Source of the DNA: Pseudomonas sp.
Lineage (GTDB): Bacteria; Pseudomonadota; Gammaproteobacteria; Pseudomonadales; Pseudomonadaceae
NCBI RefSeq assembly: GCF_030683065.1
Contig: NZ_JAUXMX010000047.1
Coordinates: 1 to 64,000, forward strand
Direction of reading: 5' to 3'
Length of the DNA: 64,000 bases
Shown here piece after piece: positions 41,179-42,181 of this stretch. Numbering within the stretch: the first letter of the stretch is position 1; every line of letters begins with the position of its first letter. The translations under genes and the position numbers were made by a program. Under the pieces are notes generated by a model, which did not search any database, was not told the origin of the DNA, and saw only the letters and a list, made by a program, of their open reading frames with translations.

Positions 41179-42181
41179 GCCGCACCGCTAGATGCAACAT
41201 CGGACGCTGGAGTGCCGGCCTCCGCGGATTACATCCGGGAGACGGTTCTCAGATGCACCGCAGGATGCGGACCATGCTTGTTGCCAGCACGCTCTATCGC
41301 GCCCCTGCAACTGCTCGGGCGCTCGACGCAAACAGCGCACTGGATCAGCAGTTGGTTCTGCAATTGAGCAAAAAACCAGCAACTGTGGCTGCGCCTAGTG
41401 CCGTGTGGCCTGGGTGCAAGCGCACTCAGCTTATCCACAGATCGCTCCACAGCTGCACTGGATAACTATCTCCAGGATGCCTGTGGCGCCGAACAACCGC
41501 TTGAAATAACGGGATTAATCCTTGACCTGAAGCGCATCCACATGTGGCTTTCAGAGACCCGGGCGAATTGATCAAAAACCGATCAAGTCGCGCAAAGCCA
41601 CGGGCTGCAAGGCCTTCAGCCAGGCATACAGAGTTACCCACAGGCCTACCCACAGTAGCCGTGGACAACTTCCTGACTTTATCCCCAATCTTTGGATAAC
41701 TACCCCAAGCGCTTGTTTTATCAACAGAACACAGCTGCTTAAAAAACGTACAAGCAACCTAAACAGCCGCACAACTAGGCCTGTAGAAGCCTACACCCAC
41801 CTTATCCACAGTTCGTTCCACAGTCTTTGTGGGCAACTTGATTAATGCCCACGCGCTTGCCAAGCACGCACCTGAAGCTATCGTCATCATTGATGCAATC
41901 AACCAGTCCGCACGGCGCCTGGGGTGTAGCCTGAGCGCCAGGCAGAGGAGAAAACCATGCATTTAAATGACTTGTTACGCAGCCTGCTCGTCGCTTATGC
42001 CGCTGGCGCCAGCGGCTGCAGTGCCGAATGAATAGCCTGTAGGTCAGTGCTCAAATGTCGCATACAGGTAGTAGGTAGGCGCGTGCAGCGCTAGCTTGAG
42101 ACAGTCTAAAAACTCGCCCGCTGTCACGTTGTGCCCGATATGCTCACCGGCTTTGAGCCACCGCATTGTCGGGGAGTGAGC
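41179..42181. other. 1-kb gene-poor region with a cluster of DnaA-box-like sites (41431-41836)
   Basis: Two perfect TTATCCACA boxes (41431-41439 and 41802-41810) stand at the ends of a cluster. Between them are one-mismatch forms: TTACCCACA (41634), TTATCCCCA (about 41679), TTTGGATAA (about 41692, reverse) and TTATCAACA (about 41718). Weaker ones are near 41459, 41647, 41660 and 41828. Each perfect box is followed at the same spacing by TCG(C/T)TCCACAG, so the ends look duplicated. No intact gene of ordinary size is present. Confidence 0.6.
41957..42031 (+). CDS. Possible 24-aa small ORF
   Basis: ATG preceded by AGAGGAGAAAACC (a strong ribosome binding site) reads MHLNDLLRSLLVAYAAGASGCSAE and stops. 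It could be a real small protein, a leader peptide, or the preserved 5' end of a lost gene. There is no other support. Confidence 0.25.
   Translation: MHLNDLLRSLLVAYAAGASGCSAE

Follow-up and report, generated by a model that had tools for sequence, protein, structure and literature searches.

A three-module cluster of DnaA boxes downstream of ureJ in Pseudomonas as a probable Fis-linked variant of DARS

Why should a Pseudomonas chromosome gather DnaA boxes in the noncoding DNA between ureJ and a LOG gene, at a locus that does not hold dnaA? The question is raised by the 64-kb stretch of DNA analyzed here (the window), in which a first-pass annotation had described an oriC-like box cluster of about 410 bp and offered three readings of it: a DnaA-titration (datA-like) site, a DARS-like control site, or the relic of an integrated replicon. 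The boxes themselves are as described. Exact TTATCCACA occurs at 41431 and 41802, both on the plus strand, and one-mismatch boxes lie in both orientations at 41634 (+), 41679 (+), 41691 (-), and 41718 (+). The placement of the cluster away from dnaA is also correct, the true dnaA being found at C6:55716, immediately downstream of boxes of its own. The extent was set too small, as the unit is larger and begins at 41365.

Lone one-mismatch boxes are common, and a cluster could in principle arise by chance. The whole window contains 12 box matches versus 5.9 expected from shuffles, and half of the 12 fall inside the 380-bp stretch of the cluster. The cluster has six boxes with no more than one mismatch, against an average of 0.06 in a 410-bp stretch of this genome, as counted over 740 kb. 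The annotation had named comparable density in many other intergenic regions as grounds for refutation; in these 740 kb such density occurred at one other stretch only, mnmG-mnmE, which lies 5 kb from dnaA and ties with the cluster as the densest. This second cluster (G000:C6:50034-50440; L179:10034-10440), with six boxes of at most one mismatch in 410 bp, includes an AT-rich stretch with GATCTTTATTTTT; it resembles an E. coli-type origin beside mnmG and is distinct from the boxes just upstream of dnaA.

The extended motif TTATCCACAGNTCGNTCCACAG reported at both ends of the element proved real. In a search of the whole genome, exact copies were found solely at these two ends, the other copies being one with 1 mismatch on contig C43 and one with 3 mismatches on C6. 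The architecture is nonetheless not one of two shared ends but of three repeated modules, the middle pair at 41634 included. Three related units appear when the surroundings of the boxes at 41431, 41634, and 41802 are aligned, and 41365-41838 consists of three copies of a module of ~103 bp. Each module has a Fis-like 15-mer and then, 50 bp on, three DnaA-type boxes that read on the minus strand as I(→)-5 bp-II(←)-3 bp-III(←) in every copy. The features of the element are listed below, with matches to R1, a model made from Pseudomonas modules only and from sequence alone.

41365..41467, plus strand: module 1, whole 103-bp unit (R1 match 41365-41466, 61 bits, E=5e-16, nhmmer on its own genome; module 1 is itself among the sequences used to build R1)
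41366..41380, no strand assigned: module 1 Fis-like 15-mer GAGCAAAAAACCAGC, offset -65 from box III
41431..41439, plus strand: module 1 DnaA box III TTATCCACA, perfect (box and geometry scans)
41443..41451, plus strand: module 1 DnaA box II CGCTCCACA, degenerate (geometry scan)
41457..41465, minus strand: module 1 DnaA box I TTATCCAGT, inverted, 5 bp from box II (geometry scan)
41501..41526, no strand assigned: conserved block between modules 1 and 2, consensus TTGAAATA.C..GATTATT.CTTGAC (conservation profile of 32 elements)
41569..41670, plus strand: module 2 (R1 match, 66.7 bits, E=7.9e-18)
41570..41584, no strand assigned: module 2 Fis-like 15-mer GATCAAAAACCGATC (consensus and offset analysis)
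41634..41642, plus strand: module 2 box III TTACCCACA (box and geometry scans)
41646..41654, plus strand: module 2 box II CTACCCACA (geometry scan)
41660..41668, minus strand: module 2 box I TTGTCCACG, inverted (geometry scan)
41736..41838, plus strand: module 3 (R1 match, 71.8 bits, E=2.1e-19)
41737..41751, no strand assigned: module 3 Fis-like 15-mer GCTTAAAAAACGTAC (consensus and offset analysis)
41802..41810, plus strand: module 3 box III TTATCCACA, perfect (box and geometry scans)
41814..41822, plus strand: module 3 box II CGTTCCACA, degenerate (geometry scan)
41828..41836, minus strand: module 3 box I TTGCCCACA, inverted (geometry scan)

In the window modules, box I agrees with the box consensus at 7/9 positions and box II at 6-7/9, and the lone boxes with one mismatch (41679, 41691, and 41718) fall outside the conserved modules. 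The search for IHF sites at the element gave several weak matches, with 2 mismatches each and none standing out; the conserved block at 41501-41526 is a candidate IHF site, promoter, or other element. A profile iterated from the three window units finds the unit at many other Pseudomonas loci, and the consensus of 75 copies reads TGnTCAAAAAACGAnCA, a spacer, and TTATCCACAGnnCGnTCCACAGTnnTTGTGGGCAACT, with hardly any gaps. The spacers, which run from the Fis-like site to the boxes, are richer in inverted repeats than their shuffled counterparts (mean stem 4.93 versus 4.01, sd 0.10), and stems of at least 7 bp occur in 11 modules versus 1.4 in shuffled spacers. The outer arms of these stems vary in sequence while complementarity is kept (e.g., L070:4571-4673 and L077:5267-5369).

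The element is conserved at its locus. Scanning named genomes for the exact end motif gave 35 stretches, the Pseudomonas ones including P. borbori, P. peli, P. tumuqii, P. aestuarii, P. benzenivorans, and P. guineae; many of them adjoin ureJ and/or LOG, with outer pairs usually 371-373 bp apart and the middle pair near +203/204. Other Pseudomonas species carry an ortholog downstream of ureF-ureG-ureJ at spacings of 0/~207/375. Conservation in relatives, which the annotation had left to be checked, extends genus-wide downstream of ureJ, with spacings of 0/204-207/371-375, and LOG is not always the downstream neighbor. In a profile of 32 elements, conservation is concentrated in the box trios, the A-tract sites, and one stretch lying between modules 1 and 2. 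Several DnaA boxes in noncoding DNA would also be expected at a replication origin or in the relic of an integrated replicon. We regard this reading as very improbable, since there is no GC-skew turn at the element, dnaA lies elsewhere with its own boxes, neither dnaA nor rpmH adjoins, and box directions and spacing are unlike those of E. coli oriC; a relic is further contradicted by the same ureJ-linked locus and near-constant module spacing throughout the genus. Class C sites were likewise considered as oriC and rejected, lying 0.6-1.0 Mb from dnaA.

Scoring by geometry alone singles out the same three units. They rank at the top of the 64-kb window (23, 22, and 22 of 27; the next site scores 19), and within 740 kb only four sites score at least 22, i.e., the three modules and C21:194907; four Markov simulations of equal length yielded no such site. 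These scores, the Fis-like site at a fixed offset, and the order and spacing of the three modules kept across species make a chance cluster scarcely credible; conservation already refutes it.

The trio has a counterpart in the DnaA-reactivating sites of E. coli, where DARS1 and DARS2 have identical box spacing, with box I opposite to II and III (PMC5742627). Applied to 37.5 kb of E. coli DNA, R1 gave two matches only, one at DARS1 (E=2.3e-4) and one in the DARS2 region at 2969135 (E=1.1e-3), and it gave none in the surroundings of datA and oriC; these E values are rough, given a shortened calibration, and correspond on the scale of the whole E. coli genome to ~0.03 for DARS1 and ~0.14 for DARS2. 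The alignment to DARS1 spans model positions 17-102 and therefore takes in part of the spacer, not the boxes alone. DARS1 itself reads TTATCCACT-ATTCC-TGTGGATAA-CCA-TGTGTATTA, the 9-5-9-3-9 pattern of the modules. Two trios of this pattern lie in the rppH-mutH interval, the location of DARS2, and which of these two similar cores is the published one is our inferred choice. The mutH-ygdR interval (L121), taken at one point for the DARS2 region, had no match and was dropped in favor of rppH-mutH.

We consider the element to be a three-module, Fis-linked Pseudomonas variant of DARS, a reading of its sequence to which we give a probability of about 0.68. It shares with DARS a three-box core spaced by 5 and 3 bp, sequence relatedness, and an intergenic position; the strong modules placed in 25 genomes lie, like DARS, between oriC and the terminus. 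Among the options of the annotation, the DARS-like one is supported: the trio geometry is identical, R1 recovers both DARS1 and DARS2, and the Fis-like site keeps a constant distance from the boxes. The likeness is not complete at either E. coli site. DARS1 (bioD-uvrB, MG1655 ~813107) has the same 9-5-9-3-9 trio with box I inverted, and its alignment continues beyond the core, taking in adjoining spacer sequence on the side of box III; reviewed work gives DARS1 a ~50-bp regulatory region beside the core, presumably on this same side. Unlike the element, DARS1 is a single site rather than three tandem modules, shows by eye no Fis-like site at the module's position, and has its perfect box at II, whereas the perfect box here is III (modules 1 and 3). 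DARS2 (rppH-mutH, MG1655 ~2969135) resembles the modules in trio geometry, in its position between oriC and the terminus, and in its reported dependence on Fis, for which the modules have a candidate site; by our own reading of its sequence, DnaA box V, among the Fis sites of DARS2, lies on the box III side. In contrast, DARS2 carries IHF and Fis sites and is 455 bp long, while the modules have no clear IHF site, set the Fis-like site 50 bp from box III, and are repeated.

The link to Fis was assessed at loci picked by boxes III and II only, so that circularity was avoided. At all 65 Pseudomonas loci, the first G and last C of the Fis 15-mer (G1, C15) stand at -65 from box III, and an inverted box I that agrees with the consensus at 6/9 positions or better is present (65/65). 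At least 5 of 6 Fis-consensus positions are found at -65 in 55/65 loci, other offsets averaging ~0.6 loci. Six sites from non-Pseudomonas records have neither the Fis-like site nor the inverted box I. Fis is encoded in the window genome. The strict Fis consensus GNNYANNNNNTRNNC is present at only 13/65 loci, because many sites have C, not T, at position 11; this count speaks against the DARS reading. In distant relatives the Fis-like site is often the perfect palindrome TGATCAAAAAATGATCA, and in many of them the strong box is II, as in E. coli, with 8-9 of 9 matches; these loci were chosen with R1, and both features are therefore description rather than test.

In E. coli DARS, the DnaA molecules on boxes I and II face each other head to head and give up their ADP, assisted by box III and Fis (PMC8682772, PMC10380432). 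By analogy, we infer that ADP-DnaA would bind the box trio of each Pseudomonas module and that head-to-head contact on boxes I and II would bring about ADP release, after which apo-DnaA would depart and rebind ATP. Box III would serve as helper to the DnaA on boxes I and II, and Fis, bound on that same side of the core, would activate the module during growth. Together, several modules on the two chromosome arms would raise the level of ATP-DnaA ahead of the following initiation. Two features sit uneasily with this scheme. Box II is off consensus (6-7 of 9), and the perfect box of modules 1 and 3 is box III, which reverses the arrangement of DARS1; in E. coli DARS it is boxes I and II that are said to be essential as a pair. 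In addition, there is no clear IHF site, which E. coli DARS2 needs. Each of these two main differences could mean a weaker module, different partners, or a role mainly in DnaA binding.

If the boxes mainly bound DnaA, or promoted ATP hydrolysis as datA does, free ATP-DnaA would be lowered after fork passage. High-affinity TTATCCACA boxes, dense and fairly early on both arms, suit such a titration or datA-like role, and part of one report (PMC12371093) credits DARS1, DARS2, and datA with a large part of E. coli chromosomal titration. Titration alone, however, needs no invariant trio geometry, inverted box, or Fis-like site at fixed distance. As for datA, it too is a noncoding DnaA-box cluster away from oriC, but its boxes are arranged on either side of a central IHF site (PMC10380432), and it has neither a module match nor a matching trio, the closest geometry match there having a poor inverted box I; the datA-like option of the annotation is not supported. 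We hold titration or datA-like action to be an unlikely account of the element, and passive titration may accompany the modules as a side effect.

DnaA and Fis might instead regulate a neighboring gene or a small RNA. The conserved CTTGAC block between modules 1 and 2 and the inverted repeats in the spacers would fit transcription control, which we nevertheless judge improbable: the module stands beside unrelated genes at other loci (an IMPACT-family gene, a TIGR03862 flavoprotein gene, gcvR-like/rarD), LOG is not constant downstream at the ureJ locus, and no Rfam match comes near its gathering score. An RNA reading was rejected, as the best Rfam hit was the c-di-GMP riboswitch at 16.5 bits against a cutoff of 35 and RNAalifold found no consensus structure among the modules.

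The DARS-like module is widespread in the genus. All 26 Pseudomonas genomes searched have matches at E<=0.01, with 6-21 each, and the window genome (65 contigs) has 13 at E<=1. At E<=1e-4, matches occur in 188/293 genomes of the order (85/118 genera) and in 106/229 genomes of the class, mostly one or two per genome and weaker. The 146 strongest modules of 25 genomes (matches above ~44 bits, distances counted from dnaA, 13 genome sizes rounded, and orthologous loci not independent) lie at 0.11-0.73 of the origin-terminus arm, with a median of 0.23, 129 of them between 0.1 and 0.3 and on both arms. Most strong modules are found 0.3-1.0 Mb away from dnaA, and across Pseudomonas the same few positions recur, with repeated distances and orientations. 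The complete genome G029 has most of its module loci 1.2-2.4 Mb from dnaA, which suggests a large rearrangement.

Elsewhere in the window genome, two further tandem modules lie between the gcvR-like gene and rarD (G000:C27:74409-74620), and E. coli-like copies, with box II perfect and box III weaker, occur at G000:C21:194876-194974, C39:31592-31695, and C19:2771-2872. The genome thus holds both the box II-perfect kind and the window type with box III perfect. We put forward, tentatively and at less than even odds, that Pseudomonas has a dispersed network of DARS modules, not two single sites, in which single, double, and triple Fis-coupled copies lie on both arms about equally far from the origin. 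In such a network the role of strong box would have passed from II to III, and DnaA reactivation would be timed jointly by copy number, arm symmetry, and Fis.

DARS-like sequences have been noted in many proteobacteria (PMC10380432), and relatives of E. coli have been described as conserving DARS2 (PMC4245941, PMC8682772). The literature searched contained no description of DARS in Pseudomonas, and the founding paper (Fujimitsu 2009), outside its scope, may list relatives. With that paper aside, the tandem, multilocus, Fis-coupled form was not found in this literature either, and the same search gave no account of the recycling of spent DnaA in pseudomonads from one replication round to the next.

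If these modules act like DARS, the timing system worked out in detail in E. coli has a multicopy, tandem form in a large and important genus. Its anatomy is simple, one Fis-like site and one box trio in ~103 bp, and the weaker class-wide matches suggest that this compact unit may be old in Gammaproteobacteria, in which case DARS would gain a searchable signature. Placement on both arms permits a direct test of whether the timing of initiation depends on gene dosage and on distance from oriC.
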